From: Chloroflexota bacterium
GTDB lineage: Bacteria > Chloroflexota > Anaerolineae > UBA2200 > JACIWT01
Assembly (NCBI GenBank): GCA_014360825.1
Contig: JACIWT010000002.1
Span: 140,782-204,781 of the forward strand
DNA: 64,000 bases
Direction: 5' to 3'
Shown one piece after another: positions 44,873 to 60,473 of this stretch. The translations under genes were made by a program, and so were the position numbers. The stretch's first letter is position 1, and each line of letters begins with the position of its first letter. The notes below the pieces were generated by a model. It had not been told where the DNA came from and made no database searches. It worked only from the letters and a program-made list of their open reading frames with translations.

Positions 44873-45718
44873 GTGCGCGAAATAAAGGCCGATGAAATCT
44901 CTGCAACGGTGGCTAAACTCTGCATCGACGCCAATTACTACCTAGGCGAAGACGTCTTGGATGCACTGAGAGCGGCCAGAGCACAAGAAATATCGCCGGT
45001 AGGACAGGCTGTGCTCGATCAGATCCTGCAAAACGCGGATGTGGCACGAGAGGAGCAGATGCCCCTCTGCCAAGATACCGGGATGACGGTGGTCTTCCTT
45101 GAGCTGGGACAGGATGCGCACATTGTCGGTGGTAGTTTGGTGGATGCGATTAACGAAGGTGTGCGTCGCGGTTATACGGAGGGCTACCTTCGCAAGTCGG
45201 TGGTAGAGCATCCCTTCTCTTCCCGCATTAATACGAAGGATAATACCCCGGCCGTGATCCACACTGACGTCGTTCCCGGTGACCGCCTTAAAATCACTGT
45301 CGTGCCCAAGGGCGGCGGCAGCGAAAACATGAGTTACCTCAATATGATGGCTCCGGCGGCGGGACGGAAGGGCATTGTGGACTTCGTCGTGGACTGCGTG
45401 GATAAGTCCGGCGCCAATCCCTGTCCACCTATTATCGTGGGTGTGGGCATCGGGGGGACAGCCGACAAGGCGATGCTCATCGCTAAGAAAGCGCTCCTGC
45501 GCCGGGTCGGTGCACCCAACCCCGATCCAGAGGTCGCGTCGTTGGAGGCCGAAATACTGGAGAAGGCCAACAAACTGGGTATAGGGCCCCAAGGCTTTGG
45601 GGGCCGGGTGACCGTATTGGCGGTGCATGCCGAAACTTACCCTTGCCACATCGCCTCAATGCCAGTGGCCGTCAACATCCAGTGCCATTCAGCGCGGCAT
45701 AAAGAAGCCGTGCTGTAA
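44873..45718 (+). CDS. Class I fumarate hydratase, alpha subunit
   Basis: 281 residues, GTG start with AAAGGAGG upstream. It corresponds to the N-terminal half of class I fumarases/tartrate dehydratases (TtdA-like). Key segments are MPLCQDTGMTVVF, KGGGSENMSYLNM, NPCPPIIVGVGIGGT and YPCHIASMPVAVNIQCHSARH; the cysteines in PLCQDTG, the NPCPP loop and the last segment fit the three ligands of the catalytic [4Fe-4S] cluster. With the beta subunit it interconverts fumarate and malate. It is the first gene of the operon that ends with a fumarate reductase, so the pair would supply or drain fumarate. The enzyme should be oxygen-sensitive, in line with anaerobic life. Confidence 0.92.
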   Translation: MREIKADEISATVAKLCIDANYYLGEDVLDALRAARAQEISPVGQAVLDQILQNADVAREEQMPLCQDTGMTVVFLELGQDAHIVGGSLVDAINEGVRRGYTEGYLRKSVVEHPFSSRINTKDNTPAVIHTDVVPGDRLKITVVPKGGGSENMSYLNMMAPAAGRKGIVDFVVDCVDKSGANPCPPIIVGVGIGGTADKAMLIAKKALLRRVGAPNPDPEVASLEAEILEKANKLGIGPQGFGGRVTVLAVHAETYPCHIASMPVAVNIQCHSARHKEAVL

Positions 45719-45727
45719 AGACCTAAT

Positions 45728-46294
45728 ATGTGCAGACTGTTATCTGCTGTCTGCCTAGCGGGTTTTGTCGTCACTGTGACTGGATGTGCGATTCTGTCTA
45801 CCCGCTTGACGCCTACGCCCTCCGAGCCCTCTGCCATTACTGGCTTAGTGATGTTGGAGAAAGACGGCAATTACATCATTGGAGTGAATTGGACATCGCG
45901 TTCGCGGGTAACATATCGGGTGACAGGCGGTGACACGACTCTCCTCAGGAATTATGTGGGCGAGACTGTGACGGTGCACGGGGTAGTGTTCGAGAAAAGC
46001 GCTTTCTTGAAAGAGTTAGTCATCCAGCGAATAGATACTGAAGTTGCCCAGCCCGGCAGCCTTTCTCAGCGAAGCGGCATTGTCCAACGATTGGGTATGT
46101 CTATATATATGCAGGGCTCCCACAAACTCCTCGATGAGAAGGGCGGCCTCATCTGCCTGTTGAGCAGCAAGACGGCGAAGGTTGACCTCGACGGTTACGT
46201 AGGCAGACAAGTCAAGGTGACCGGAACCCTGGCCAAGACCGTCGAAGGTAATGCGTGGATTATGGACGTCCTTTTGGTAGAACCTGTAAACTAG
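45728..46294 (+). CDS. Lipoprotein of unknown function between fumarase subunits
   Basis: 188 residues. A signal peptide ends in the lipobox VTVTGC, so the mature protein should be lipid-anchored outside the membrane. It appears to contain two OB-fold-like repeats, each with a closing V-G-x-x-V-x-V-x-G strand (NYVGETVTVHGVVF and GYVGRQVKVTGTL). It starts 9 bp after the alpha subunit stop and ends 10 bp before the beta subunit start, so it is in the operon. No reason for an exported protein between two cytoplasmic enzyme subunits is evident; it is an open question whether it binds metal or a ligand. Confidence 0.7.
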   Translation: MCRLLSAVCLAGFVVTVTGCAILSTRLTPTPSEPSAITGLVMLEKDGNYIIGVNWTSRSRVTYRVTGGDTTLLRNYVGETVTVHGVVFEKSAFLKELVIQRIDTEVAQPGSLSQRSGIVQRLGMSIYMQGSHKLLDEKGGLICLLSSKTAKVDLDGYVGRQVKVTGTLAKTVEGNAWIMDVLLVEPVN

Positions 46295-46304
46295 GAGGTC
46301 AGAC

Positions 46305-46850
46305 ATGAAAATAACGACACCTCTCACGGACGAAACAATTGCGAAACTTCGCGCTGGAGATGAAGTGCACATTACGGGGACGATCTATGTGGGCCGCGAT
46401 GCAGCCCACAAGCGACTGGTCGAGGCGCTAGAGAAAGGCGAGCCGCTGCCCTTTGACCCCAAGGGCCAGATCATTTATTATATGGGGCCGTCTCCGGCCA
46501 AACCAGGCAAACCCATTGGTTCCGCTGGGCCTACCACCAGTTACCGGATGGATCCTTACACGCCCCGTCTGCTCCAGGCAGGCTTGAAGGGCATGATTGG
46601 CAAGGGGAATCGCTCGCCGGAAGTCCGCGAGGCCATCCGAAAATATGAGGCAGTGTACATGGCCGCCACTGGTGGAGCAGCGGCACTCATCGCCAAATCT
46701 ATCAAAGAGGCGGAGGTCATCGCCTACGATGACTTGGGTGCGGAGGCGCTACGGCGGCTGCAGGTAGAGGACTTTCCTGCCATCGTCGTGAACGATATGT
46801 ACGGTGGCGACGCCTATGAAGATGGCAAAGCCAAATACCAGGTGACATAA
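46305..46850 (+). CDS. Class I fumarate hydratase, beta subunit
   Basis: 181 residues, the C-terminal half of class I fumarases (TtdB-like): LRAGDEVHITGTIYVGRDAAHKR, YYMGPSPAKPGKPIGSAGPTTSYRMD split over the substrate-binding region, and GLKGMIGKGNRSPEVREAI. Good Shine-Dalgarno (GGAGG) before the ATG at 46305. The stop codon overlaps the hdrC start (TAATG), so fumarase and the heterodisulfide-reductase-like genes are translationally coupled. Confidence 0.92.
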   Translation: MKITTPLTDETIAKLRAGDEVHITGTIYVGRDAAHKRLVEALEKGEPLPFDPKGQIIYYMGPSPAKPGKPIGSAGPTTSYRMDPYTPRLLQAGLKGMIGKGNRSPEVREAIRKYEAVYMAATGGAAALIAKSIKEAEVIAYDDLGAEALRRLQVEDFPAIVVNDMYGGDAYEDGKAKYQVT

Positions 46851-47260
46851 TGGCGCGCATTCAACTTTCCACTGGCAGGCTGAATTCCGACTTCGTCCGT
46901 CGGGTTGCAGAATTGAGCGGCCAGGACCTCTTGGCCTGTTACCAATGCGGCAAGTGTTCCGCCGGCTGCCCGGCTGCAGGCTCCATGAACGTTCTGCCCA
47001 GCCAGATCATTCGCCTCGTGCAATTGGGGCTCGAGGATGAGGTCCTGCAATCGGAGACCATTTGGTATTGTGCCTCGTGTTTGACATGTGTCGCTCGCTG
47101 TCCGAAAGGTGTGGACTTGGCCAGAGTAATGGAGGCCATCCGTAAGATCGCTTTAGAGCGCTACGGCGATCACATACTTGTGACCAAAATCTCGCCTGAC
47201 GAACTGGCTGAGTGGCCACAACAGGCATTTATCGGCGGCTTCCGCAAATACACACGTTGA
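46850..47260 (+). CDS. hdrC: HdrC-like [4Fe-4S] protein
   Basis: 136 residues with two [4Fe-4S] motifs: Cys30, 33, 36, 40 (CYQCGKCSAGCP) and Cys74, 77, 80, 84 (CASCLTCVARCP). Length and arrangement match subunit C of heterodisulfide reductase, which wires HdrA to HdrB. Start overlaps the fumarase beta stop by one base. Confidence 0.9.
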   Translation: MARIQLSTGRLNSDFVRRVAELSGQDLLACYQCGKCSAGCPAAGSMNVLPSQIIRLVQLGLEDEVLQSETIWYCASCLTCVARCPKGVDLARVMEAIRKIALERYGDHILVTKISPDELAEWPQQAFIGGFRKYTR

Positions 47261-47283: not shown

Positions 47284-48171
47284 ATGAAGATCGCCTACTT
47301 TCCTGGTTGTACGCTGCACGAGAAGGCAGCGGGTTTTGATATCTCGGCGCGAGAAGCCATGGCCGCGCTGGGTGTCGAATTGGTGGAAATGTCCGGCTGG
47401 GGTTGCTGCGGGGCCACCTACCCTCTTTCAAGCGAGAACCTGTTGGAGTTCACGGCCAACGCTCGCAACCTCGCCAACGCCCGCAAACAGGGTGAGGAAC
47501 TCGCCGTCGCCTGCGCTACCTGCTACAACGTTCTGAAACGCACCAATTATTTCCTTGCACACGACACAGAGGCGCGAGATAAAATCAACCTCTTCATCGA
47601 GGAGGAATACGCCGGCGACTTGGCTGTGATCCATTTATTGGAGATCATCCGCGATCGCATCGGATTCGACGCCGTGCGCGAACGGGTGATGCGGCCACTG
47701 ACTGGGCTCAAGGTAGCCGCTTATTACGGGTGTTTGTTACTCCGTCCATTCGCCGAAATCGGCTTGGATGATCCGGAAAAGCCCCGCGTCCTGGAAGACC
47801 TAATGGCTGCGCTGGGCGCAGAAGCGGTGTTTTTCCCGCATCGCAGCGAATGCTGCGGTTCTTACATAGCAGTCAAATCAGCGGAGGCAGCGTTGATGCC
47901 CTCCTACACCATCCTCTCGGCAGCAGAGCGTGCCGGGGCAGATCTCATAGTCACCAGTTGCCCGCTTTGTCAGTTTAACCTCGACCGTCGCCAGTCCGAG
48001 ATGCAGCGGAGATATTCCGGCTTCAGGCCACTGCCAGTGCTGTATTTTACCCAATTGCTCGGTATCGCCCTGGGGCTGGATGCAGGCAAGTATGGACTGG
48101 ACAAACTCTATGTGGACCCGCAGCCGATCTTACGCGAGAGGGGTTTTCTCCTGCAGGAGGTTCCCGCGTGA
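47284..48171 (+). CDS. hdrB: HdrB-like CCG-domain protein
   Basis: 295 residues from the ATG at 47284; an earlier in-frame start at 47212 would overlap hdrC. Two CCG (cysteine-rich) domains are present: first GCTLHE, GWGCCGATYP and CATCYNVLK; second YYGCLLLRP, ECCGSYIAVKS and CPLCQFNLD. In HdrB these bind the two unusual [4Fe-4S] clusters that reduce the heterodisulfide. Here the substrate may be another disulfide, or the subunit may only pass electrons to the fumarate reductase subunits encoded downstream, as in the fused TfrB of methanogens. Confidence 0.92.
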   Translation: MKIAYFPGCTLHEKAAGFDISAREAMAALGVELVEMSGWGCCGATYPLSSENLLEFTANARNLANARKQGEELAVACATCYNVLKRTNYFLAHDTEARDKINLFIEEEYAGDLAVIHLLEIIRDRIGFDAVRERVMRPLTGLKVAAYYGCLLLRPFAEIGLDDPEKPRVLEDLMAALGAEAVFFPHRSECCGSYIAVKSAEAALMPSYTILSAAERAGADLIVTSCPLCQFNLDRRQSEMQRRYSGFRPLPVLYFTQLLGIALGLDAGKYGLDKLYVDPQPILRERGFLLQEVPA

Positions 48172-49505
48172 ATAGCACTCGGGCGCTCGTCATCGGCGCT
48201 GGTATCGCTGGCATCCAGGCGGCACTGGACATCGCCAATTCCGGCTACGAGGTCGTGCTGGTCGAACGACTCCCCTCCATTGGCGGGCGCATGGCCCAAT
48301 TCTCCGAGACTTTTCCCACCTTGGATTGTGCGCAGTGCATTCTGACCCCGCGCACGGTCGAAGTTGGCCGCCACGAAAACATCCATCTGTTGACCTACGC
48401 AGAGGTCGAGTCGGTGAGGGGAGATATAGGCGATTTCTCGGTGCGAATCCGCCGTCATCCGGCCTATGTGGACTGGAGCAAGTGCACTGGCTGTGGCCTA
48501 TGCCAGGAGAAATGCCCCAAGCGCGTGCCGTCGGAATTCGAGGGGCAGATGGGCACACGCAAGGCTATCTACACCTTGTCGCCTCAGGCGGTCCCCAATA
48601 AACCAGTCATTGATCGTGACAATTGCATCTACTTTGAACGCGGCAAGTGCCAGGCTTGTGTGAAGTTCTGCCCCGTCGGCGCGATTGACTGGGATCAAAG
48701 AGAGCAAGTGATAGAGGAGCGCGTTGGCGCGATTATCGTGGCCACCGGCTACGATCTCTACCCGCTGGCTGATCTGAAAGAATACGGCTGCGGCGAGGTC
48801 CCTGATGTGATCAGCGGCCTCCAGTTCGAGCGTTTGCTCTCCGCCTCTGGTCCCACGGCGGGCGAAGTCAGGCGGCCCTCCGACGGCAAGGTGCCCCGGG
48901 AAGTCGTCTTTGTGCAGTGCGCTGGCTCCCGGGACCCCGAAACCGGTGTGCCATACTGCTCCAAATTCTGTTGTATGTACACCGCGAAACATGCCATGCT
49001 CTACAAACATAAGGTGCACGATGGACAGGCTTATGTGTTTTACATTGACATTCGCGCGGCGGGTAAAGGCTACGAGGAATTCATCCGCAGGGCAATGGAA
49101 GAGGATCGCGTGCTCTACCTGCGTGGCAAAGTGAGCAAGATATTCCGTGACGGCGACAGAGTGATGGTATGGGGTGTGGACACGCTCAGTGGGCAGAGTG
49201 TAGAGATTGCTGCCGACTTGGTCGTATTGGCAACGGCCACCGTGCCATCGTCAGGCACGGCGGAACTGGCGAAGTTGCTTCATCTCGAGGCCGATGATTG
49301 CGGCTTTTTAATCGAAGCCGACGCCAATTTACGTCCATTAGAGACTTCGCGCCCTGGCGTTTTCTTGGCGGGAGCGGTGCAGGGACCAAAAGACATTCCC
49401 GAGGCCGTGGCCCAGGCCAGCGGTGCGGCGGCTAAGGTGCTGACATTATTTGGGCAATGGTGCGCCCAAGAGTCCATTCCTGAGGCCGCCCTCGCCTCCA
49501 CGTGA
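48168..49505 (+). CDS. hdrA: HdrA-like flavoprotein 1 (with inserted ferredoxin)
   Basis: 445 residues, GTG start overlapping hdrB by 4 bp. FAD-binding Rossmann motif GAGIAGIQAALDIANSG at the very N-terminus, an HdrA-specific segment (FPTLDCAQCILTPRTVEVGRHEN in part), an inserted two-cluster ferredoxin region (CTGCGLCQEKCP about 105-116; CQACVKFCP about 162-170) and the PYCSKFCCMYTAKHA motif typical of HdrA. It lacks the N-terminal CHCG domain and the C-terminal ferredoxin; both are found in the next gene, so the two HdrA proteins complement each other. Confidence 0.9.
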   Translation: MNSTRALVIGAGIAGIQAALDIANSGYEVVLVERLPSIGGRMAQFSETFPTLDCAQCILTPRTVEVGRHENIHLLTYAEVESVRGDIGDFSVRIRRHPAYVDWSKCTGCGLCQEKCPKRVPSEFEGQMGTRKAIYTLSPQAVPNKPVIDRDNCIYFERGKCQACVKFCPVGAIDWDQREQVIEERVGAIIVATGYDLYPLADLKEYGCGEVPDVISGLQFERLLSASGPTAGEVRRPSDGKVPREVVFVQCAGSRDPETGVPYCSKFCCMYTAKHAMLYKHKVHDGQAYVFYIDIRAAGKGYEEFIRRAMEEDRVLYLRGKVSKIFRDGDRVMVWGVDTLSGQSVEIAADLVVLATATVPSSGTAELAKLLHLEADDCGFLIEADANLRPLETSRPGVFLAGAVQGPKDIPEAVAQASGAAAKVLTLFGQWCAQESIPEAALAST

Positions 49506-49534
49506 CGAGGGCTTGTGAACTCATAGAGGGTAAC

Positions 49535-51241
49535 ATGAAACGCATCGGTGTTTTCATCTGCCATTGTGGGACCAACATTGCTGGCACGGTGGATGTGCAG
49601 CAAGTGGCCGAGGCTCTCCGGGACTATCCCGGAGTTGTATACGCCATAGATTACAAGTATATGTGTTCGGATCCGGGTCAGAACCTGATCCGAGAGGCCA
49701 TCACCCAGCATTCGCTCGACAGCGTCGTGGTGGCGGCCTGCTCCCCCACCATGCATGAGACCACCTTCCGTCGTGCCGTAGCCAACGCGGGACTAAACCC
49801 TTACCAATGCGAGATTGCTAATATCCGTGAACAATGCAGTTGGGTGCACCAGGGTGACCAGAAGAGTGCTACGACAAAGGCTATTGAGATCATCCGGACT
49901 ATGGTGGAGAAGGTGCGTCGCAACGAGGATCTGGAACCTCTGGCGATGCCGCTGGTCAAGCGGGCACTTGTCGTAGGTGGGGGGATTGCTGGCTTGCAGG
50001 CTGCCTTGGATATCGCCGATGGTGGGTATGAGGTCATCCTAGTGGAACGGGAGCCCACTTTAGGTGGGCATATGGCTCATCTGTCCGGTACTTATCTGAA
50101 CTTCGATTCCTCATCCGAACTGCTGGCCGACCGGTTGGATCGTGTCCGTTCTCACCGCCGCATCCGTACCCTGGTCGAGTCCGAGGTCGTGGAAGTGAAC
50201 GGCTACGTGGGCAACTTTGAGGCGCGGATACGCACACGAAGGGGCGAGATAAAGGAGGAGGTGGGCGCAATTGTAGTGGCTACGGGCTACAGCCTCTTGC
50301 CAATGAGCCGCTTGCCAGAGTATGGTGGGGGGGCGGTGCCCGATGTGATAGATGGACTCCAGTTGGAGGCCATGCTTGCATCCGAAGGACCTACGGGTGG
50401 CAGGGTGGTGCGCCCATCCGACGGCAAAGTGCCCCAGCAGGTCGTTTGGGTCCAGTGTGCTGGTTCCCGCGATCCCGAACACAACATGCCCTACTGTTCG
50501 AAAATCTGCTGTATGTACGTGGCCAAGCAGGCGATGATGTACAAAAAGCAGGTGCCCGAGGGCCAGGCCTATGTGTTTTACATTGACATCCGCTCAGCAG
50601 GTAAGGGATATGAGGAATTCGTGCAATGTGCCCAGGAGGAATACGGCGTACTGTATCTACGGGGCAAGGTAGCCAAAATCTTCCGCGACGGCGAGAAAGT
50701 AGCAGTATGGGGCACCGACACCCTGAGTGGACATAACATTGAGATCGAAGCCGACCTGGTAGTGCTGGCCACAGCAGTGGTGCCCCGCGAGGATGCATTT
50801 GAATTGGGCCAGCGGTTGCGCATCAGCACGGACGCTTATGGCTTCTTCAGCGAGGCGCATCCCAAGTTGCGACCTGTGGAGAGCCTAACTGCGGGCATTT
50901 ACTTGGCTGGCGCAGCCCAAGCCCCGCGGGATATCCCGGAAACCGTGGCCCAGGCCAGCGGTGCGGCAGCGAAAGTGCTCTCCCTCTTCTCCCATAAGGA
51001 AATCGTGGCCGAGCCAACGGTCGCTTACGTGGCGGCTGACATGTGCGCAGGCTGTGGCATTTGTGTCAGCGCTTGCCCTTATGAAGCACGAACTATCAAC
51101 CCGGTTACGAATGTGGCCGTGGTGAACGCCGCGCTTTGCCAGGGTTGTGGAGCCTGTGTGATGGCTTGCCCGAACAAAGCGTGCTCAGTGCACAACTTTG
51201 CACCGGAACAGATGTTGGCCATGGTAGAGGCAGTACTATAG
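49535..51241 (+). CDS. hdrA: HdrA-like flavoprotein 2 (with N- and C-terminal clusters)
   Basis: 568 residues from the ATG at 49535, whose N-terminus KRIGVFICHCGTNIAGTVDV is the canonical HdrA start; an in-frame GTG at 49502 overlaps the previous stop. N-terminal [4Fe-4S] domain with CHCG and the CSPTMHE segment, FAD domain (GGGIAGLQAALDIADGG), PYCSKICCMYVAKQA, and a C-terminal 2x[4Fe-4S] ferredoxin (CAGCGICVSACP, CQGCGACVMACP). The inserted ferredoxin region of HdrA1 is missing. In electron-bifurcating HdrABC complexes the HdrA FAD splits electrons between HdrB and ferredoxin. Confidence 0.92.
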   Translation: MKRIGVFICHCGTNIAGTVDVQQVAEALRDYPGVVYAIDYKYMCSDPGQNLIREAITQHSLDSVVVAACSPTMHETTFRRAVANAGLNPYQCEIANIREQCSWVHQGDQKSATTKAIEIIRTMVEKVRRNEDLEPLAMPLVKRALVVGGGIAGLQAALDIADGGYEVILVEREPTLGGHMAHLSGTYLNFDSSSELLADRLDRVRSHRRIRTLVESEVVEVNGYVGNFEARIRTRRGEIKEEVGAIVVATGYSLLPMSRLPEYGGGAVPDVIDGLQLEAMLASEGPTGGRVVRPSDGKVPQQVVWVQCAGSRDPEHNMPYCSKICCMYVAKQAMMYKKQVPEGQAYVFYIDIRSAGKGYEEFVQCAQEEYGVLYLRGKVAKIFRDGEKVAVWGTDTLSGHNIEIEADLVVLATAVVPREDAFELGQRLRISTDAYGFFSEAHPKLRPVESLTAGIYLAGAAQAPRDIPETVAQASGAAAKVLSLFSHKEIVAEPTVAYVAADMCAGCGICVSACPYEARTINPVTNVAVVNAALCQGCGACVMACPNKACSVHNFAPEQMLAMVEAVL

Positions 51242-51267: not shown

Positions 51268-54200
51268 ATGAGCAACTCAGATCACTGCCCCAATCAGACG
51301 AGCAAATCCAATCCCATCGGTGCCGTCTTAGTTGTTGGTGGCGGCATTGCCGGCTTGCAAGCCTCCCGTGACCTAACTGAGGCAGGCTTCAAAGTGTACT
51401 TGGTGGAGGAAAAGCCAGCGCTTGGTGGCCTTGTGGCTCAATTCGATAAAACCTTTCCCACTAACACGAATGATTGTATCCTGTGCATCACGACGCCTAA
51501 ATTGACGGAGGTGGGGCGATACCACAACTGTTGGAACATCTACCATCGCAGTAAGCAATGCGCGATGACGCCCGAATTGCTGGAGACGGGCCGGCACATT
51601 GAAGTCATCACCGGTGCTTCGGTGGAGAGCATTTCAGGTGAGCCGGGCCACTTCAAAGTCCAGGTGCGTCAATTGCCACGCTTCGTGGACCCAACGAAAT
51701 GCGCATTTTGCGGGGATTGCAGCGCTGCCTGCCCAGTGGAAGTTCCGGATGAATTCAATGCGGGTCTGTCGAAGCATAAAGCCATCTACACGCTCTACCC
51801 TCAGGCCACGCCCGGTGCCTACACCATCCAAAAACGCGGCACCGCCCCCTGTCGCAACGCGTGCCCTATCCACCAGCGAGCCCAGGGATACATTGCCCTG
51901 ATCCGAGAGAAACGCTACGAAGACGCCTATCGTGCCATCAAGGAGGACAATCCCTTCCCCAGCGTCTGCGGCCGCATCTGCAACCACCGCTGCGAAGATG
52001 AGTGCACGCGCGGCCGCGTGGACGAACCGGTTTCCATTATGGCTCTCAAACGCTTTGTTGCCGACCAGATCTACGCGCGCGAACGGGCACCTGTGGAACC
52101 TGCCAAACGCACACGGCCAGAGCGTATTGCCGTCGTTGGTTCGGGACCAGCGGGACTGACGGCGGCCCAGGACCTGGTGCGGATGGGCTATGGTGTCACT
52201 GTTTTCGAAGCACTGCCTGTTGCTGGGGGCATGATGCGCGTGGGCGTGCCAGAGTACCGTTTGCCTCGCCAGATCGTTGAACGTGAAATACAAGATATCT
52301 TGGACCTGGGCGTTGAACTGAGACTCAACACCCGCGTGGAGGATGTGGAGTCGCTGTTCGCCGAAGGCTACAAAGCCGTTTTCCTGGCCATCGGGGCACA
52401 CCAGGGACGCAAACTCCCCATCCCTGGTGCGGACCTACCCGATGTTTGGCTTAACACCGACTTCCTGCGCCGAGTGGCACTGGGCGAAAAGATGGACCTC
52501 TCAGGCAGGCGTGTGCTCGTCTTAGGTGGCGGCAACGTTGCCATCGACGTGGCGCGGACGGCGGTGCGCTTCGGTGCAGCAGAAGTCAGCATGGCCTGCC
52601 TGGAAAGTTGCGAGATGCAACCCGCCCACCGCTGGGAGATCGAGGAGGCGCAGGCCGAAGGTGTGGTCATGTATAATGATCGCACTTTCAAAGAAATCCT
52701 CTCAGAGAACGGTCGCGTCACCGGGGTCCGGGTCTGGAACGTGCACTTCCGGGGTTTCACGCCGCAGGGCATTGATATGGATGAATTCCCGGAAACCGAA
52801 CACATCCTGCCCTGTGATCTGGTTATCTTTGCCATTGGCCAGGCTCCAGACACTGGTTTTCTCTCCGCCGACGGCGACATCAAAATCGGGCGTGGGCGCA
52901 CTATCCAGGTGGATGCGAACACATTGATGACCACCAGGCCCGGTGTATTTGCGGGTGGCGATGCTGTAACTGGAACCGCCTTTGTCGTTGAGGCCATTGC
53001 CGCCGGACATAAGGCCGCTCGTTCTATAGACCGCTATATCCGCGGCGAAGAGTTGGGGGCGAAGGAGCCCGTTCTTCAGCCCGTGGTCGAAATCACCGAG
53101 CAGGAACTGGCAGAGAAACTGGAAACTGGCCAGATTGTGAAACGTCCCAGGGTGGAAAAGCCGCAATTGCCTGTCTCTGAACGGGTGAGGGGCTTTGCTG
53201 AGGTCGATTTGGTGCTCACCGAGGAACAGGCCCTGGCCGAGGCCGAACGCTGTCTCTCCTGTGGCATCTGTTCAGAATGCCTGGAGTGCGTGTATGCCTG
53301 CAAGACGGGCGCGCCGATCCACGAGATGCAGGAGACTATCCGCGAATTCGAAGTGGGCGCAGTGGTACTCACTCCTGGCGCGGAACTCACCGACGCCTGG
53401 CTGACAGAAGAGTACGGCTTTGGACGCTGGCCTAATGTGCTGACTAGTATAGAGTTTGAGCGTCTGCTTTCACCAACAGGGCCGTACGGCGGCCGCATAC
53501 AACGCCCCTCGGATGGCAAGGAACCGCACAAGATAGCCTGGCTACAGTGCGTCGGCTCACGAGAGCCCCCTCCTGGACGCGAGTACTGCTCTTCAGTATG
53601 CTGTATGTCGGCCATCAAAGAAGCAATCTTGGCCAAAGAGTATCTCCCTGCTCTTGAGCCTTCCATTTTCTTCCGGGATATCCGCACTTTCGGCAAAGAT
53701 TTCGAGCGCTACTATGAGAATGCACGGAGGGATTATGGCATTCGTCCCATCCGTTGTTCTGCTTTCTCGCTCGAGGAAATGCCCGGGAACCACAATCTCC
53801 TGGTGCGTTACACAGACGAAATGGGGCAGACGCACGAGGAAGAGTTCGATCTGGCGGTACTTTCAGTCGGCTTTCAGTCGGACGAGAACAGGCGGTTGCT
53901 GGCAGAGCGGCTCGGTGTGAAACTCAATCAGTGGGGCTTTTGTGAGACTGGCGAATTCAGTCCCACCACTACTTCGCGCCCTGGGATTTTCGTCGCCGGG
54001 ACTTTCAAAGAGCCCAAAGACATCCCAGAGGCCATCGTCGAGGCTTCCAGTGCTGCGGCCGACGCCTCGCGCCTGCTGGCTGCTGCCCGGGGCACGCTAG
54101 TCGAGGCAAATGCTTATCCTCCTGAGCGCGATGTAACGGAGGAAGAGCCACGAGTGGGCGTGTTCATTTGCCACTGCGGCATCAATATCGGTGGGGTAGT

Positions 54201-55809
54201 CAATGTGACGGAGGTGGTGGAATACGCGGCCAAACTACCCGGTGTGGCCTATGCCGATCAAGACCTGTACGTCTGTTCCCAGGACAGTCGAAACAAGATT
54301 CGAGACAAGATCAAGGAGCACCATCTGAACCGCTTGGTCGTGGCCTCCTGCACGCCCCGCACCCATGAACCATTGTTCCGAGACACAATTCGCAGCGCGG
54401 GTCTCAACCCGTCTCTATTCGAGATGGCCAACATCCGTGAGCAAAGTTCCTGGGCTCATGAAGACACCCCGGGTACAGCCACAGAGAAGGCCAAGGAACT
54501 CGTGGCCATGGCCGTGGCCAAGGTCCGTGCTCTGCGGCCAGTACGGCGAACCAAGTTCGAACCAGTGCGTAGCGCCTTGGTCATAGGCGGGGGCATCGCT
54601 GGCATGACCGCGGCTCTTTCCATCGCTGAACAAGGATACCCAGTTCACCTGGTAGAACGCGAACCGGAGTTGGGTGGTCACTTGCGCCATGTCTACCACT
54701 CCTTAAATGGTGAAGACCCCCAGGCTCTCTTGCATCAAACCATAGCCAAGGTGTCCTCACACCCTCGCATTTCCGTGTACACGAGCGCGCGTGTAGAAAG
54801 CATTGGCGGTTACGCAGGCAGGTATGAGACCATCATTTCTGGGAATGGCGGACGCAGGGTGATAGAGCACGGTGCGATTGTAGTGGCAACCGGCGCGCAG
54901 GCGGCAGCCACCTCCGAATACCTGTACGGCCAGGATGAGCACGTGCTCACCCAAAGTGAACTTGAGGAACGGCTGGCAGCGGGCAACATCGAATTGCTAC
55001 CAGACAGCGATGTGGTGATGATACAATGCGTTGGCTCGCGGGATGAACGGCATCCCTATTGCAGTCGCATCTGCTGTGAGCAAGCAGTGAAGAACGCAAT
55101 CAAGATCAAGCAACATAGTCCCAAAACCAGTGTGTATATCCTGTACCGCGATATCAGCACCTATGGCTTCAAAGAGATATATTATCACCAGGCACAAGAG
55201 ATGGGCGTCGTTTTCATGCGCTACGAGCCGGAGGCCAAACCGCGCGTGTTTGTAGAGAATGGGCGGCTGTGTCTCGAGGCAAAGAGGCCCGGCTCGGACG
55301 ATAAGTGGATGCTGTATCCGCAGTACTTGATCTTGAGCACGGGCATTGTGCCCCATGACAACGAGGAACTGGCACGGCTGCTGAAAGTCCCGCTCAATCA
55401 GGATGGGTTTTTCCTGGAGGCCCATCCCAAATTGCGTCCATTGGATTTCGCTACCGATGGCATCTATCTGTGTGGCTTGGCCCACTCTCCACAGAGCATT
55501 AGCGAATCCATTGCTCAGGCCAATGGCGCCGCCCTGCGCGCGGTGAGATTGCTCTCGAAGGAGGCCATCGAGGCAGCGGTCTTCACGGCAACCGTGAACG
55601 AGCGATTGTGCGCTGGCTGCGGGCTCTGTGTGGCCCTTTGCCCATCCGGTGCACGCCGGTTGGACGAAGAGCGTCATGTGGCCGAAGTCATTGATGCCTT
55701 GTGTCAGGGCTGTGGAGCGTGCAGCACTGCTTGTCCGAATGGCGCAAGTCAACAATACGGCTTTGAAAAACGCGGTGAATTGGCTAAGATTGAGATGGCG
55801 CTTGGCTGA
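51268..55809 (+). CDS. HdrA-GltD-HdrA triple flavoprotein fusion
   Basis: 1513 residues from the ATG at 51268; an open frame reaching back to 51136 lies inside hdrA2 and is rejected. Domains in order: HdrA1-type FAD domain (GGGIAGLQASRDL, about 24-36); first cluster of the inserted ferredoxin (CAFCGDCSAACP, 145-156); a complete GltD/NfnB-like module (about 190-600) with its own Fe-S region (CRNACP, CGRICNHRCEDEC), FAD site GSGPAGLTAA (291-300), NAD(P)H site GGGNVAIDVA (420-429) and FAGGDAV; further cysteines (CLSCGICSECLECVYAC, 662-678); the rest of HdrA1 (to about 945); then a full HdrA2-type unit (CHCG about 968, second FAD site, CSRICCEQA, C-terminal ferredoxin pair). It thus repeats the adjacent hdrA1-hdrA2 pair in one chain with an NAD(P)H-oxidising module spliced in, and is the likely NAD(P)H entry point of the complex. 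Confidence 0.9.
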   Translation: MSNSDHCPNQTSKSNPIGAVLVVGGGIAGLQASRDLTEAGFKVYLVEEKPALGGLVAQFDKTFPTNTNDCILCITTPKLTEVGRYHNCWNIYHRSKQCAMTPELLETGRHIEVITGASVESISGEPGHFKVQVRQLPRFVDPTKCAFCGDCSAACPVEVPDEFNAGLSKHKAIYTLYPQATPGAYTIQKRGTAPCRNACPIHQRAQGYIALIREKRYEDAYRAIKEDNPFPSVCGRICNHRCEDECTRGRVDEPVSIMALKRFVADQIYARERAPVEPAKRTRPERIAVVGSGPAGLTAAQDLVRMGYGVTVFEALPVAGGMMRVGVPEYRLPRQIVEREIQDILDLGVELRLNTRVEDVESLFAEGYKAVFLAIGAHQGRKLPIPGADLPDVWLNTDFLRRVALGEKMDLSGRRVLVLGGGNVAIDVARTAVRFGAAEVSMACLESCEMQPAHRWEIEEAQAEGVVMYNDRTFKEILSENGRVTGVRVWNVHFRGFTPQGIDMDEFPETEHILPCDLVIFAIGQAPDTGFLSADGDIKIGRGRTIQVDANTLMTTRPGVFAGGDAVTGTAFVVEAIAAGHKAARSIDRYIRGEELGAKEPVLQPVVEITEQELAEKLETGQIVKRPRVEKPQLPVSERVRGFAEVDLVLTEEQALAEAERCLSCGICSECLECVYACKTGAPIHEMQETIREFEVGAVVLTPGAELTDAWLTEEYGFGRWPNVLTSIEFERLLSPTGPYGGRIQRPSDGKEPHKIAWLQCVGSREPPPGREYCSSVCCMSAIKEAILAKEYLPALEPSIFFRDIRTFGKDFERYYENARRDYGIRPIRCSAFSLEEMPGNHNLLVRYTDEMGQTHEEEFDLAVLSVGFQSDENRRLLAERLGVKLNQWGFCETGEFSPTTTSRPGIFVAGTFKEPKDIPEAIVEASSAAADASRLLAAARGTLVEANAYPPERDVTEEEPRVGVFICHCGINIGGVVNVTEVVEYAAKLPGVAYADQDLYVCSQDSRNKIRDKIKEHHLNRLVVASCTPRTHEPLFRDTIRSAGLNPSLFEMANIREQSSWAHEDTPGTATEKAKELVAMAVAKVRALRPVRRTKFEPVRSALVIGGGIAGMTAALSIAEQGYPVHLVEREPELGGHLRHVYHSLNGEDPQALLHQTIAKVSSHPRISVYTSARVESIGGYAGRYETIISGNGGRRVIEHGAIVVATGAQAAATSEYLYGQDEHVLTQSELEERLAAGNIELLPDSDVVMIQCVGSRDERHPYCSRICCEQAVKNAIKIKQHSPKTSVYILYRDISTYGFKEIYYHQAQEMGVVFMRYEPEAKPRVFVENGRLCLEAKRPGSDDKWMLYPQYLILSTGIVPHDNEELARLLKVPLNQDGFFLEAHPKLRPLDFATDGIYLCGLAHSPQSISESIAQANGAALRAVRLLSKEAIEAAVFTATVNERLCAGCGLCVALCPSGARRLDEERHVAEVIDALCQGCGACSTACPNGASQQYGFEKRGELAKIEMALG

Positions 55810-55861: not shown

Positions 55862-56500
55862 ATGTTAGTGGGTGAAAGAATGACTCATAACCCAATCACA
55901 ATTCGTCCCGAAACCTCGATAGACGAGGCGCTACGCATCATCCGTGAGAACAAAGTGCGGCGGCTGCCAGTGCTAGACCGTAACAAGCGCCTGGTGGGCA
56001 TCGTCTCCGAGAAGGACTTGCTCTACGCCTCTCCATCGCCCGTGACTACTTTGAGCGTGTTCGAGTTGCACTATTTGTTGTCCAAACTCACAGTTGCCGA
56101 CATCATGAAGCGCGACGTCATCACCACCTGCGAGACCTGCCCCTTGGAAGAAGCAGCACGCCTCATGGTGGACAACAAGATCGGCTGTCTCCCCGTGATG
56201 CGTGATGGCAAACTCGTCGGCATCATCACCGAAACCGACATTTTCAAGATCCTAATCGAATTGCTCGGGGCCAGAGAGCAGGGCGTGCGGCTCACGCTTC
56301 TCGCTCCGGATCAAAGAGGGCAGTTGGCCGAACTCACTGCTGCCATCGCCAAGGCGGGAGGCAACATCGTCAGCCTCGGGACCTTCTTGGGCCAGGACCC
56401 CACCAACCGCCTCATCACGGTGAAAGTTCAAGACGTGCCACCGGAGAAACTCACGGCGGTGGTAGAGGAATTGGGCGGAAAAGTGGTGGATGTTCGCTAA
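55862..56500 (+). CDS. CBS-pair plus ACT domain protein
   Basis: 212 residues; AAAAAGGAGGG precedes the ATG. Two CBS domains (GERMTHNPITIRPETSIDEAL; DIMKRDVITTCETCPLEEAARLM, each closing with LVGI) are followed by an ACT-like domain (about 140-212, VRLTLLAPDQRGQLAELTAAIAKAGGNIVSLGTF split over the first strand and helix). This AcuB-like layout usually senses adenine nucleotides or other small ligands. Inside the Hdr operon it may adjust the electron-transfer complex to the energy state. Confidence 0.85.
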   Translation: MLVGERMTHNPITIRPETSIDEALRIIRENKVRRLPVLDRNKRLVGIVSEKDLLYASPSPVTTLSVFELHYLLSKLTVADIMKRDVITTCETCPLEEAARLMVDNKIGCLPVMRDGKLVGIITETDIFKILIELLGAREQGVRLTLLAPDQRGQLAELTAAIAKAGGNIVSLGTFLGQDPTNRLITVKVQDVPPEKLTAVVEELGGKVVDVR

Positions 56501-56547: not shown

Positions 56548-56970
56548 GTGAACGAATTTGAACCGAGAATCATCGCCTTCCTGTGCAACTGGTGCACGTA
56601 CGCTGGCGCTGATCTGGCAGGCACTTCGCGCATCCAATATCCACCTAACATCCGCATCATCCGCCTGATGTGTAGTGGTGCGTTGGATACTGCCTACGTG
56701 TTAAAGGCCTTGCTGGAAGGCGCCGACGGTGTGCTCATCGGGGGTTGTCATCCCGGCGACTGCCACTATCAGAGCGGCAACTACAAAGCCCGCCGGCGTG
56801 TGGCCATTCTAAAGAACATTTTAGACCAGTTGGGGTTTGATGAAGACCGTGTTTGGTTGCGCTGGATCAGTGCCAGTGAGGGACAAAAATTCGCTGATAC
56901 CGTGAGGGAGATGGTGGCCGCTATCCAAGAGAAAGGTCCTAATCCTCTCCGAACGCTCTGGGGGATCTAA
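56548..56970 (+). CDS. mvhD: MvhD-like [2Fe-2S] protein
   Basis: 140 residues, GTG start. Cys13 and Cys16 (LCNWCTYAGAD), Cys42 (LMCSGALD), Cys67 and Cys72 (GGCHPGDCHY) fit the MvhD/FrhD family ([2Fe-2S]) that carries electrons from a hydrogenase or dehydrogenase into HdrA. No hydrogenase large or small subunit is in the window; the electron donor here would be the FrhB/FdhB-like protein or the GltD-like module. Confidence 0.92.
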   Translation: MNEFEPRIIAFLCNWCTYAGADLAGTSRIQYPPNIRIIRLMCSGALDTAYVLKALLEGADGVLIGGCHPGDCHYQSGNYKARRRVAILKNILDQLGFDEDRVWLRWISASEGQKFADTVREMVAAIQEKGPNPLRTLWGI

Positions 56971-56973
56971 ACT

Positions 56974-58104
56974 ATGAAAGCCATCATGGAGATCCGCGGA
57001 AATGACACCTTGGGCGCTTTGAGGACCTTCTTGCGCACGATGCTGGAGAAAGGTGTAGTGGATGCGCTACTTGTCCCCCAAGTTGTCCCCAGTGGTGACA
57101 ACGTCGTTCAGACTCTCGTGCGCGATCCAGAGCATATGGAAACTACGGACCCCATCTCACCGGTCATCCCGGTGCAATCGGCAACCCTGGTCGCCAACCT
57201 CACGGGGAATATGCCCATCGGCGAGAATATCCCTCGCTTGCGATTGGGCGCCGTGCTCAAGTCTTGTGAGATCCGCGCCTTAATTGAGTTAACTAAACTC
57301 AAGCAAGCCAACCTGGACGACGTGGTCATCATCGGCATAGACTGTCTGGGCACGTACGAGGTGCGCGATTACGCGGCGCTCACTGGCGAGGGTGTATCTT
57401 TGACGGCCGAAGCCCTCGCTGCAGCACGACAGGGGCTCGTCGTGCCACACGGAGGCTACCAGTTCCGCGCCGCCTGTCAGATGTGCGAGTTCCCCACACC
57501 AGCGAATGCAGATATCGCCATCGGGCTTATTGGGGTGCAGAATGGCATCTTGCTGGACGTGAAGGACGAATTGGCAGAGAAATTGGGTCTTTCGCCGGAC
57601 GCAGAGCCAGCAGGCCGCGCCGCTGCTGTGGAGAAGTTGGTAGCGGATCGGATCGCGCGGCGCGACGCCGTTATCTCCGAATTTCGGCAGCGGGTGGTGG
57701 ATATGCCGAGCCTCCTGGCAGAGTTCTCGCGCTGCATCCGCTGCTACAATTGCATGGTGGCCTGCCCCATCTGTTATTGCAAACAATGCCTCTTCCAAGG
57801 TCCAACTTTCGACCATGACTCAGATGTGTACTATCGGCGAGCCGGACGGCAGGGGATTATACGCATGCCCACCGACACGCTGCTCTTCCATCTCACGCGT
57901 ATGAATCATATGGTTACGTCCTGCGTGGGATGCGGACTGTGCACGAGTGCTTGCCCCAGCCAGTTGCCTGTAGGGACCATCTTCCGCGCCGTGGGTCAGA
58001 AGGTGCAGGCTCTCTTCGATTATCAGCCGGGTCGTAGACTGGACGAAGAATTGCCGCTCGCCACTTTCCGCGAAGATGAATTGACCGACCTTGGTGAGGG
58101 CTGA
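56974..58104 (+). CDS. FrhB/FdhB-like protein with two C-terminal [4Fe-4S] motifs
   Basis: 376 residues. The N-terminal and middle part resembles the F420-hydrogenase/formate-dehydrogenase beta family (RLGAVLKSCEIRALIEL, VVIIGIDCLGTYEV, CQMCEFPTPANADIAIGLIG). The C-terminal part has two cluster motifs, CIRCYNCMVACPICYCKQC and CVGCGLCTSACP. In related proteins the core binds FAD and reacts with F420 or NAD(P)H; in Hdr complexes FdhB feeds electrons through MvhD to HdrA. Its place between mvhD and the fumarate reductase genes supports an electron-transfer link. Which coenzyme it uses cannot be read from the sequence. Confidence 0.78.
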   Translation: MKAIMEIRGNDTLGALRTFLRTMLEKGVVDALLVPQVVPSGDNVVQTLVRDPEHMETTDPISPVIPVQSATLVANLTGNMPIGENIPRLRLGAVLKSCEIRALIELTKLKQANLDDVVIIGIDCLGTYEVRDYAALTGEGVSLTAEALAAARQGLVVPHGGYQFRAACQMCEFPTPANADIAIGLIGVQNGILLDVKDELAEKLGLSPDAEPAGRAAAVEKLVADRIARRDAVISEFRQRVVDMPSLLAEFSRCIRCYNCMVACPICYCKQCLFQGPTFDHDSDVYYRRAGRQGIIRMPTDTLLFHLTRMNHMVTSCVGCGLCTSACPSQLPVGTIFRAVGQKVQALFDYQPGRRLDEELPLATFREDELTDLGEG

Positions 58105-58122: not shown

Positions 58123-58815
58123 ATGCCGGAGAAGAAAAACGCTGAATTGATCCCCATCTACATCATGGGCAAACAGTATATGGTGCCGCCTTCCCTCACC
58201 ATTATGACTGCTATGGAGTACGCTGGATACAAACTGGTGCGTGGAGTGGGGTGTCGGGAGGGCTTCTGTGGCGCCTGCGCCACCGTTTACCGCCTGCCAG
58301 GCGACTATCGCCTATACATCGGCTTGGCCTGCCAGACCATGGTGCAGCCCGGTATGTATCTGGCACAGATTCCCTCTTTCCCTATCCAGCGGGCGGTTTA
58401 CAACATTGAGGAAATCACACCGACCTTGGCTACCATCGTGCGGCTTTATCCAGAAGTGCTGCGCTGCCTGAGTTGTGGCACGTGCAGCAAGGTCTGCCCG
58501 CAGAACTTGGATGTGCGCGATTTCATGGCCGATATCATGCGCGGTGACATCGCCTCTGCCGCCAATAAATCCTTCGATTGCATTATGTGTGGCTTGTGCG
58601 CAATGCGTTGTCCAACCGAGCAAGGGCAGTACAATGTGGCCATTCTTTGCCGTCGCCTCTACGGCAAATACTTGGCTCCAAAAGCCCTTCACCTCGCCGA
58701 ACGGGTGGCGGAAGTGAAGGCCGGGAAATATGATGTCGAACTCGCCCAGATGAAAAAGAAGACCAAGGATGAGTTGAAAGAGTTGTATAACAAAAGGGAT
58801 ATTGAGCCGGAATAA
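58123..58815 (+). CDS. Fumarate reductase/succinate dehydrogenase-type iron-sulfur subunit
   Basis: 230 residues. N-terminal [2Fe-2S] domain with Cys44, 49, 52 and 70 (CREGFCGAC...C) and two [4Fe-4S] motifs, Cys115, 118, 121, 125 and Cys153, 156, 159, 163 (CLSCGTCSKVCP, CIMCGLCAMRCP). It is like the iron-sulfur half of TfrB of methanogens, but without the fused HdrB part, which is encoded separately as hdrB in this operon. GGAGGTG precedes the ATG. It would wire the Hdr complex to the flavoprotein subunit encoded next. Confidence 0.88.
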   Translation: MPEKKNAELIPIYIMGKQYMVPPSLTIMTAMEYAGYKLVRGVGCREGFCGACATVYRLPGDYRLYIGLACQTMVQPGMYLAQIPSFPIQRAVYNIEEITPTLATIVRLYPEVLRCLSCGTCSKVCPQNLDVRDFMADIMRGDIASAANKSFDCIMCGLCAMRCPTEQGQYNVAILCRRLYGKYLAPKALHLAERVAEVKAGKYDVELAQMKKKTKDELKELYNKRDIEPE

Positions 58816-58865: not shown

Positions 58866-60473
58866 ATGACTTATACACCCGAGATGCGCGAGTCCATCAA
58901 AAAAGTGGAGGCCACTCGCCCCACCCGGATGCATGAGACCTTCCCTCGTATACCGCCGGAAGAGCGGCAAACGCTTCTCCAGCGGTTTCATCCCGACTAC
59001 ATCAAAGAGGCCATGCGCGAGATACGGGTGGGCCCCAATAAAGGAGACCGCACACCGTTGGAACTGGCCGATTTATTGGAAGCACGCCCCGTCCTGCGCT
59101 CCGATAGCGTTGACCTCACCCAAGTGGATTACGAGACCGATGTCCTGGTGATCGGTGGCGGCGGTGCGGGGTCATCGGCTGCGCTTATTGCTCAAGAGAA
59201 TGGAGCCCGGGTCATCTTGGCTACGAAATTGCGCCATGGTGATGCCAACACAATGATGGCCCAGGGTGGTATCCAGGCTGCAGATCGGCCTGAGGACTCG
59301 CCCGTTCGCCATTATCTGGATGTGATGGGCGGGGGAGGCTTCACCAATGATCCTGACCTGGTCGAGGCGCTCGTGCATGACGCGCCTATGGTCATCCAGT
59401 GGCTGGAGAGCCTAGGCTGTATGTTTGACAAAGAGCCCGATGGCACCCTGAAGCAGATCCACGGTGGGGGCACCTCGCGCAAACGCATGCACTACGCCCG
59501 CGATTACTCGGGGGCGGAGATCATGCGCACTCTTCGGGATGAGGTGCGCAACCGCCCTGACATCAAAGTCATCGAATTCTCGCCTGCCGTCGAGCTGATT
59601 ATGGACACCAAAGGGCAGGTCGCTGGCGCTGTCTTGATGAATCTGGAGACCGGTGAGCACCTCGTAGTAAAGGCGAAAACGACCATCCTGGCCACGGGTG
59701 GTAGTGGACGATTGCATTACCAGGGCTTCCCTACTACCAACCATTATGGAGCCACCGCCGATGGCCTTATCCTGGCGTACCGGGTGGGAGCAAAATTGTC
59801 TTTCATCGATACGATGCAATACCATCCCACCGGCGCAGCCTACCCAGAACAGATCCTGGGCTTCCTCGTGACGGAGAAGGTGCGCGGCCTCGGCGCCCAG
59901 GTTACTAATGTGGATGGGGAACAATTCGTGTATCCCCTGGAAACCCGCGATGTGGAAGCGGCAGCCTTCATCCGCGAGTGCAAAGAGCGGGGTAAGGGCG
60001 TGACTACACCCACTGGCCGCCAAGGGGTCTGGCTGGATTCGCCTATGATTGACTTGATCCACGGCCCAGGCACCATCCAGCGAGAGTTGCCGGCCATGGT
60101 GCGACAGTTCCAGCGTTTCGGCATTGACATAACAAAAGAGCCGATGTTGGTCTACCCCACGCTGCACTACCAGAACGGTGGCATTGCCATCAAACCTGAC
60201 GGTTCTACAGCCATCCCGAACCTATTTGTGGCAGGCGAGGCCGCCGGGGGCATCCATGGGCGCAACCGATTGATGGGTAACTCGTTGCTCGATATCACCG
60301 TCTTCGGTCGGCGTGCAGGGCGGGCAGCCGCAGAGCGGGCAACAAAGGTGAAGTTAGGTCGGCTGACCCTGTCACATCTGGATGATTGGGAGAAACAATT
60401 GAAAGAAGCAGGGCTGGACCCGCAGATCACAGCCCCGCTATTGTTGCCGGATTACACCAGACACGTGAGATAA
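58866..60473 (+). CDS. Soluble fumarate reductase/succinate dehydrogenase flavoprotein
   Basis: 535 residues from the ATG at 58866 (AAGGAGAG upstream). FAD motif GGGGAG (97-102). Active-site segments of the family are all present: QYHPTG, TEKVRGLGA (substrate arginine), LHYQNGGI and AGEAAGGIHGRNRLMGNSLLD. The histidine that carries covalent FAD in membrane enzymes is Asn128 (ANTMMAQGG), so FAD is probably bound non-covalently as in soluble relatives. About 88 residues precede the FAD domain, longer than usual, and may be a docking region. No membrane anchor genes follow; the operon ends 8 bp before the convergent rtcB. Reversible fumarate/succinate conversion is the expected reaction. Confidence 0.88.
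   Translation: MTYTPEMRESIKKVEATRPTRMHETFPRIPPEERQTLLQRFHPDYIKEAMREIRVGPNKGDRTPLELADLLEARPVLRSDSVDLTQVDYETDVLVIGGGGAGSSAALIAQENGARVILATKLRHGDANTMMAQGGIQAADRPEDSPVRHYLDVMGGGGFTNDPDLVEALVHDAPMVIQWLESLGCMFDKEPDGTLKQIHGGGTSRKRMHYARDYSGAEIMRTLRDEVRNRPDIKVIEFSPAVELIMDTKGQVAGAVLMNLETGEHLVVKAKTTILATGGSGRLHYQGFPTTNHYGATADGLILAYRVGAKLSFIDTMQYHPTGAAYPEQILGFLVTEKVRGLGAQVTNVDGEQFVYPLETRDVEAAAFIRECKERGKGVTTPTGRQGVWLDSPMIDLIHGPGTIQRELPAMVRQFQRFGIDITKEPMLVYPTLHYQNGGIAIKPDGSTAIPNLFVAGEAAGGIHGRNRLMGNSLLDITVFGRRAGRAAAERATKVKLGRLTLSHLDDWEKQLKEAGLDPQITAPLLLPDYTRHVR

Follow-up and report, generated by a model that had tools for sequence, protein, structure and literature searches.

The window analysed here, a stretch of 64,000 nucleotides from a Chloroflexota bacterium of the class Anaerolineae (GenBank assembly GCA_014360825.1, contig JACIWT010000002.1, positions 140,782 to 204,781 of the forward strand), encodes a 1513-residue chain in which two HdrA units are fused and a GltD module is lodged within the first. 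The gene lies in a row with genes for fumarase, further heterodisulfide reductase (Hdr) subunits and a fumarate reductase. We propose that the fusion is probably the NADH-oxidising entry subunit, of the kind known from Moorella and as HdrL, of a soluble and probably bifurcating Hdr-linked fumarate reductase encoded in a single operon; within this proposal, the coupling of the fusion to fumarate reduction is likely. The fused chain itself is not new. A fumarate reductase operon in place of the usual folate enzyme partner is unusual.

The open reading frame starts 26 bases past the hdrA2 stop and is read through 1513 codons without a stop. The chain and its parts are as follows:

51268 to 55809, forward strand: HdrA-GltD-HdrA fusion (HdrL, or Moorella-type HdrA), 1513 residues, 166 kDa.
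51313 to 51837, forward strand: residues 16–190, first half of the HdrA flavin adenine dinucleotide (FAD) core with the first ferredoxin motif, C145/C148/C151/C155.
51841 to 53337, forward strand: residues 192–690, GltD/NfnB-type module (PRK12771, 558.9 bits).
52585 to 52635, forward strand: end of the second strand of the nucleotide site, VSMACLESCEMQPAHRW (residues 440–456), with CLES where NADPH enzymes have YRR(S/T).
53338 to 54102, forward strand: residues 691–945, rest of the first HdrA FAD core, with the bifurcation-type pair E731/K784.
54142 to 55806, forward strand: residues 959–1513, HdrA2-type unit consisting of an N-terminal cluster domain, an FAD core (E1233/K1275) and a C-terminal 2[4Fe-4S] domain.

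An earlier reading of the sequence alone (the sequence-only reading) had seen the same order of HdrA half, GltD/NfnB-like module, HdrA remainder and HdrA2-type unit, with three FAD-type units in the one chain, and the Pfam, NCBIfam and PDB matches agree with it on both counts. Because the best E-values of the domain matches go down to 3e-164 and the same order is found in 81 chains, chance is excluded and the architecture is near certain. The inserted module is of the PRK12771/NfnB/StnC kind (558.9 bits against a cut-off of 516; PDB matches to NfnABC, StnC and NfnB). Its core, Fer4_20 plus Pyr_redox_2, spans residues ∼192–600 in the Pfam, NCBIfam and PDB comparison, and the module as a whole comprises the cluster cysteines 195, 199, 238, 242 and 246, an FAD site, a nucleotide site and a six-cysteine motif at 662–678. 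The sequence-only reading had placed it between the first and the second cluster motifs of the HdrA ferredoxin domain; the placement stands, but the second motif looks GltD-derived. Homology of the insert extends to residue ∼684, taking in C662–C678, and this motif resembles the C-terminal motif of free-standing GltD-MvhD chains (32–43%, E 5e-10 to 8e-12), whereas its match to HdrA1 is marginal (E 0.003). Since it is closer to the GltD-MvhD chains than to HdrA1, the supposed second HdrA cluster motif was apparently brought in with the GltD module, and it looks as if the insertion took the place of the HdrA ferredoxin domain's own second motif instead of just dividing it.

Residues 1–948 were modelled with AlphaFold2 from an alignment of 49 sequences (mean predicted local distance difference test score, pLDDT, 88.8; predicted template modelling score, pTM, 0.84). 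In Foldseek, the model matched NfnABC, StnC and NfnB across ∼430–540 columns and methanogen HdrA across ∼927 columns, with a target template modelling score of up to 0.94 for the HdrA core; i.e., the predicted fold is that of an HdrA carrying the GltD module as an insertion. The window chain alone has ∼15 extra residues near 88–103, a local repeat without counterpart in 17 aligned full-length relatives, and in the model residues 85–108 have a pLDDT below 50. This private insertion is either a recent duplication or a local assembly flaw. At the DNA level, a 27-nucleotide direct repeat at 51460–51593 (74%, spacing 75), in frame, doubles the CxxC region near the first FAD.

The same order was found elsewhere once it was searched for. 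The window fusion runs from FAD core and ferredoxin motif through GltD to the rest of the FAD core, then to an N-terminal cluster domain, a second FAD core and a C-terminal ferredoxin domain, as is proper to Moorella-type/HdrL HdrA. A profile-based census yielded at least 81 chains, from many phyla, ordered exactly in this way (c1-Fd-GltD-c2-N-c1-c2-Cf) and 16 with that order minus GltD; 18 full-length chains align end to end with the window fusion at 47–67% identity. Within the class, 48 of 150 genomes (36 of 101 genera) gave a match at E ≤ 1e-250, the best ones mostly full length. A scan with the fusion protein alone returned no matches, while an alignment-based scan of named genomes found full-length fused chains in Bacillota isolates (Moorella stamsii, Desulfotruncus arcticus and Formimonas warabiya), in Thermodesulfobacteriota (the isolate Desulfopila aestuarii, and Smithella) and in Chloroflexota, Myxococcota, Acidobacteriota, Gemmatimonadota, Armatimonadota, Spirochaetota, Atribacterota and others. 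A sequencing or assembly error, which the sequence-only reading had named as fatal to it, is excluded because the order recurs in many independent genomes, and an annotation artefact joining genes is likewise ruled out. In Anaerolineae, two further chains of ∼1142 residues (L071 and L073) are type III HdrAs (N-c1-Fd-GltD-c2-Cf); this type is therefore not confined to archaea.

In bifurcating HdrA, roles have been assigned to a glutamate and a lysine (E356/K409; PMC12054007, PMC9430772). When these positions were mapped by alignment, it turned out that each of the four HdrA units in the operon keeps the pair: E221/K274 in HdrA1, E289/K342 in HdrA2, and E731/K784 and E1233/K1275 in the fusion. 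The fusion thus has it in both FAD cores, as a Moorella-type/HdrL HdrA should, and all four columns are invariant in the 18 full-length chains. These residues are consistent with the earlier suggestion that the fusion could hold the bifurcating flavin. R331, which matches NfnB R201 at flavin N5, is invariant in 49 diverse chains; StnC retains the same arginine and yet is non-bifurcating (PMC10482914).

The module is also, as had been supposed, the likely pyridine-nucleotide entry of the fusion. At the end of the second strand, the NADPH enzymes NfnB, StnC and NfnABC have YRRS or YRRT; the window fusion has CLES, in common with the Moorella stamsii chain. Among 120 fused inserts, 64 are of the YRR and 45 of the CLE subtype, and CLE would correspond to an NADH-type site. 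A published rule assigns NAD preference by GXGXXG/GXGXXA (PMC12054007) and would make the window fusion (GGGNVA) NADP-preferring; it was set aside because M. stamsii also has GGGNVA and M. thermoacetica HdrA oxidises NADH, and the residues at the second-strand end seemed more telling. CLES versus YRR thus offers a quick hypothesis for which family members use NADH and which NADPH. The two subtypes are intermixed between phyla, possibly reflecting a repeated NADH/NADPH switch.

The sequence-only reading had seen the fusion as a tandem duplicate of the neighbouring hdrA1-hdrA2 pair whose copies had fused, and had offered sisterhood of the halves with these genes as the check. The phylogeny rejects this derivation by setting the halves well apart from their gene neighbours, an outcome that the sequence-only reading had itself named as refuting. 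In a careful maximum likelihood (ML) tree of 76 HdrA core units, with which a FastTree of 259 units is concordant, each half of the window fusion falls within the Moorella-type/HdrL family: a clade of 27 rows (100/99) unites its N-half with the N-terminal halves of fused HdrAs of other phyla, and one of 26 rows (100/100) unites its C-half with their C-terminal halves. Far from both, the free-standing hdrA1 and hdrA2 of the window share one 9-row clade (100/100), which includes the single-chain type I HdrA of a Gemmatimonadota operon (L130). Constraining the N-halves to join the hdrA1 group comes at a cost of 110 log units (approximately unbiased (AU) test, p-AU 8.6e-5), and constraining the C-halves to join the hdrA2 group at a cost of 102 (p-AU 4.7e-6). 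As tree and AU tests separate them, hdrA1 and hdrA2 are not the source of the fusion. The simplest account of the pair is apparently a duplicated type I HdrA followed by complementary domain losses: hdrA1 retains the inserted ferredoxin domain, and hdrA2 the N-terminal cluster and C-terminal ferredoxin domains. If they are a split type I HdrA, their resemblance to the fused layout would be convergence. Operon L130 still has one unsplit HdrA chain, as against the pair at 48168–51241. A single GltD insertion in the family is not supported either, because in the HdrA tree GltD-bearing and GltD-less fused chains are interspersed, and because free GltD-MvhD chains nest among the inserts in a quick GltD tree, one from the same order nesting with the window's insert. 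Gain and loss are indistinguishable here; by these trees GltD appears to have been gained or lost more than once.

The fusion gene belongs to a same-strand row, with gene ends overlapping or closely spaced from fumarase to frdA, in the order fumarase alpha and beta, HdrC, HdrB, hdrA1, hdrA2, fusion, CBS-ACT, MvhD, FdhB-like, FrdB-like and FrdA-like. Its other members are:

44873 to 45718, forward strand: fumarate hydratase alpha (Fumerase; PF05681, 5.7e-119).
46305 to 46850, forward strand: fumarate hydratase beta (Fumerase_C; PF05683, 1.6e-60).
46850 to 47260, forward strand: HdrC-like, two [4Fe-4S] motifs (TIGR03290, 3.7e-22; NF038018 QmoC, 2.8e-22).
47284 to 48171, forward strand: HdrB-like, both CCG cysteine-rich motifs (PF02754, 7e-26; TIGR03288, 3.1e-60).
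48168 to 49505, forward strand: free-standing HdrA1, E221/K274 (NF040770, 4.9e-149, profile positions 140–561).
49502 to 51241, forward strand: free-standing HdrA2, E289/K342 (NF040770, 5.6e-190).
55862 to 56500, forward strand: CBS pair plus ACT domain, possible regulatory subunit (PF00571, 9.1e-38; PF22190, 7.8e-7).
56548 to 56970, forward strand: MvhD, [2Fe-2S] linker to HdrA (PF02662, 6.7e-55).
56974 to 58104, forward strand: FdhB/FrhB-like iron-sulfur (flavo)protein (PDB 9t1s_M, 3.1e-29; 8rvu_E; 7bkb_E).
58123 to 58815, forward strand: FrdB-like, [2Fe-2S] and two [4Fe-4S] motifs (Fer2, 3.9e-4; Fer4_8/9; TfrB N-part, 1.8e-7).
58869 to 60473, forward strand: FrdA-like flavoprotein (TfrA profile, 1e-111, below the equivalog cut-off).

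HdrA1 consists of an FAD core with an intact inserted ferredoxin domain and is devoid of the N-terminal cluster and C-terminal ferredoxin domains; HdrA2 has both of these around its FAD core and no inserted ferredoxin domain. The PDB matches of the FdhB-like protein are the FdhB subunits of Hdr-formate dehydrogenase complexes. Between the two fumarase genes (45728–46294) lies a 188-residue open reading frame with a signal- or lipobox-like start, an unusual site for a secreted protein, for which Pfam gave no match.

Parts of this row are retained beside the nearest relatives of the fusion, which are 62–67% identical to it: one locus (L042) reads fusion...CBS-ACT-MvhD-FdhB-like-FrdB-FrdA, and another (L043) FumB-HdrB-HdrA1-HdrA2-fusion-CBS-ACT up to the contig end. 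A third among them, the Gemmatimonadota operon L130, reads HdrA-HdrC-HdrB-fusion-FdhB-like-FrdB-FrdA. Most fusion relatives with readable context adjoin HdrCB, MvhD, MetV and MetF, and in one variant (L046) the fusion stands alongside a [NiFe] hydrogenase. A Thermoplasmatales locus (L162) has fumarase alpha and beta, HdrC, HdrB, a GltD-less fused HdrA of 1017 residues and MvhD in one row; judging from these genes, the fumarase-Hdr link may cross domains of life.

The fumarate reductase itself is tied to Hdr genes across the class. FrdA was present in 31 of 150 same-class genomes (E ≤ 1e-120), at 66–80% identity except for one copy at 50–52%, and in 24 of the 31 loci Hdr genes lie within 12 kb. 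Of the seven loci without them at that distance, five have less than 4.1 kb of contig upstream, and the remaining two carry the copies that diverge most (66% and 50%). The HdrA type varies: some Frd clusters contain just hdrA1-hdrA2 (L246), others a fused HdrA lacking GltD (L231 and L241), and the window and L042 have the GltD-bearing chain. Because of this variation the fusion seems to be an interchangeable module for NADH input. Window FrdA is identical to E. coli FrdA at the aligned fumarate-site residues H232, R287, H355 and R390. Where the FAD-linking histidine sits (His44 in E. coli), it has asparagine, as do all 25 homologs, from the class and beyond. In E. coli FrdA, fumarate reduction survives the loss of the covalent FAD bond, whereas succinate oxidation is abolished. 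Taken together, these features suggest that the product of 58869–60473 belongs to a family of fumarate-reducing enzymes with non-covalent FAD that are tied to Hdr genes. Calculated from textbook potentials, the reaction 2 NADH + fumarate + 2 Fdox → 2 NAD + succinate + 2 Fdred (Fd, ferredoxin) yields ∼−33 kJ/mol with ferredoxin at −500 mV and ∼−48 kJ/mol at −420 mV; bifurcation would therefore be affordable.

In the mechanism that we propose, the products of the row would form one complex. The FAD of the GltD module would be reduced by NADH bound there, and electrons would pass via the clusters of the module to the first HdrA unit. From the HdrA flavins, one stream would leave by the C-terminal ferredoxin domain and run through MvhD, the FdhB-like protein and FrdB to FrdA, where fumarate would be reduced; the second would serve to reduce a low-potential acceptor, for which ferredoxin, docking at HdrA1, is the most likely candidate, because HdrA1 alone keeps an intact inserted ferredoxin domain. 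We hold only tentatively, and with some doubt, a more specific version in which the system is the fumarate branch of a Moorella-type complex: NADH enters by GltD, the electrons are split, FrdAB is reached via MvhD and the FdhB-like protein, and the hdrA1/hdrA2 pair is the ferredoxin exit, HdrA1 supplying the ferredoxin site and HdrA2 the cluster domains.

Several points weigh against a bifurcating, fusion-fed fumarate reductase. Gene adjacency is not a complex. Some relatives (L246 and G103) have HdrA1-HdrA2-FrdB-FrdA and manage without the fusion, which would make it an optional addition and not indispensable, and in further clusters with Frd genes a GltD-less fused HdrA stands in its place. 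The assignment of the fusion to NADH over NADPH rests on one motif. FrdA reaches 374.2 bits in the TfrA equivalog test, against a cut-off of 718. In M. thermoacetica, the second acceptor was not ferredoxin, and a quinone has been suggested (PMC13040438). This last point also feeds the idea, in our judgement rather unlikely, of a non-bifurcating NADH:fumarate reductase in which the fusion feeds FrdA via MvhD and the FdhB-like protein while HdrBC exchanges electrons with a thiol or with the quinone pool, a role for menaquinone having been proposed in M. thermoacetica (PMC13040438). The ferredoxin partner is only a candidate, the GltD module has remodelled the inserted ferredoxin domain of the fusion, and in the type III model as published GltD blocks the ferredoxin site (PMC12054007). 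Against such an enzyme stand the E/K pair in every HdrA unit of the operon, invariant or nearly so across the fusion family, and the intact inserted ferredoxin domain of HdrA1.

Reverse operation, with reduced ferredoxin driving succinate oxidation to NADH (confurcation) in syntrophic growth or carbon oxidation, we regard as improbable: HdrA systems are reversible in principle and the fumarase of the operon would serve either direction, but the reaction would be uphill by ∼33 kJ/mol under standard conditions with ferredoxin at −500 mV, and the missing FAD-linking histidine in all 25 FrdA homologs, by what is known of E. coli FrdA, disfavours succinate oxidation. It is very improbable that the fusion is the HdrA of a methylene-tetrahydrofolate (methylene-THF) reductase as in Moorella, with frdAB nearby by coincidence. 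M. thermoacetica reportedly has such an enzyme, the HdrCBA-MvhD-MetVF complex (type IV) of Mock et al. 2014, MetV and MetF adjoin most relatives of known context, and the genome has genes for the corrinoid subunits of CO dehydrogenase/acetyl-CoA synthase and two MetV genes (C6:11183 and C2:6803). Neither metV nor metF was found in the operon, however. Both MetV genes lie elsewhere in the genome, each within ∼3 kb of a free-standing GltD-MvhD chain of ∼700 residues (L065 and L066, at C2:7537–9489 and C6:7767–9770; L074 is a further such chain), and the fusion is again found with Frd genes in L042 and, in a different phylum, in L130. Given these neighbours, the methylene-THF reductase here seems to own a GltD module and not to need the fusion, which would leave the fusion available for fumarate; the free chain would be a possible alternative NAD(P)H input for it. 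The derivation of the fusion from hdrA1-hdrA2, with GltD inserted afterwards, we give practically no credence: the pair does resemble the fusion minus GltD in layout, but the trees and AU tests reject it, and the fused kind occurs in many phyla whereas the split pair was met only in Anaerolineae loci close to the window. The genome also contains an RnfC-like gene scoring below the cut-off, and two HdrA frames with an in-frame TGA (L063, C3:209614–211953, 1087 bits against the HdrA2 profile; L062, C5:158045–159589), probably selenocysteine HdrAs.

A bifurcating, Hdr-linked fumarate reductase would matter in two respects. Chains of the HdrA-GltD-HdrA type occur commonly among anaerobes in many phyla, but in the only one studied the second electron acceptor is in dispute; fumarate has a high potential and is simple to assay, and a relative coupled to it would make the bifurcation question tractable. 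If the proposal is true, it would add a soluble energy-conserving fumarate reductase to uncultivated Anaerolineae, in which fumarate fermentation would conserve energy without a membrane reductase.

Among known systems, the closest is the HdrA of M. thermoacetica, whose description led us to reject the idea that the architecture is new to the literature. This protein of 1487 residues (162.8 kDa) has an extra ferredoxin domain and a thioredoxin reductase (TrxR)-like domain interrupted by GltD, eight [4Fe-4S] clusters, three FAD, one NAD(P)H site and the pairs E696/K750 and E1204/K1246, and an NADH:benzyl viologen activity of 190 U/mg is quoted for it (PMC9430772). The window fusion (1513 residues, 166 kDa) has the identical domain order, three FAD sites, one NAD(P)H site, the E/K pair in both HdrA units and an MvhD nearby, and the congeneric M. 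stamsii chain (L124), with which it shares CLES, aligns with it over the whole length at 48%. Unlike in M. thermoacetica, its partners are FrdAB, fumarase and the FdhB-like protein rather than MetVF, and a split HdrA pair is present in addition. HdrL of Desulfobacterium autotrophicum HRM2 received its name in 2009, when it was described as joining heterodisulfide reductase with glutamate synthase and bearing an NADH site (PMC2702500); likened by description and not by sequence, it is probably of the same kind. Each HdrL is followed by MvhD; in distinction from the window, HdrL1 neighbours dsrABC and two of the three are selenoproteins (PMC2702500). In a survey of methane-metabolising archaea, type II HdrA consists of two fused TrxR/FAD units of different origin and in type III the ferredoxin domain contains an inserted GltD, the longest chain having 1182 residues (PMC12054007); these traits are separate there, whereas the window fusion unites both in one chain. 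The reductase side resembles the methanogen thiol:fumarate reductase TfrAB, which is likewise soluble and linked to an HdrB/HdrD-type cysteine-rich protein, TfrA being the best NCBIfam match of FrdA even though its cut-off is missed. Unlike TfrB, the 230-residue FrdB-like protein is without the fused cysteine-rich HdrD domain, no CCG match being found in it by Pfam search. The operon as a whole has its counterpart in Pseudoclostridium thermosuccinogenes, for which a bifurcating fumarate reductase operon was proposed (PMC7282089; Koendjbiharie and van Kranenburg, preprint 2019): in both, fumarase, an Hdr complex and fumarate reductase are encoded together, and there the reduction is proposed to be NADH-driven and ferredoxin-coupled. 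NADH enters there through Flx (NADH dehydrogenase) proteins, of which none is found among the annotated open reading frames of the window operon; here the fused GltD module may replace them.

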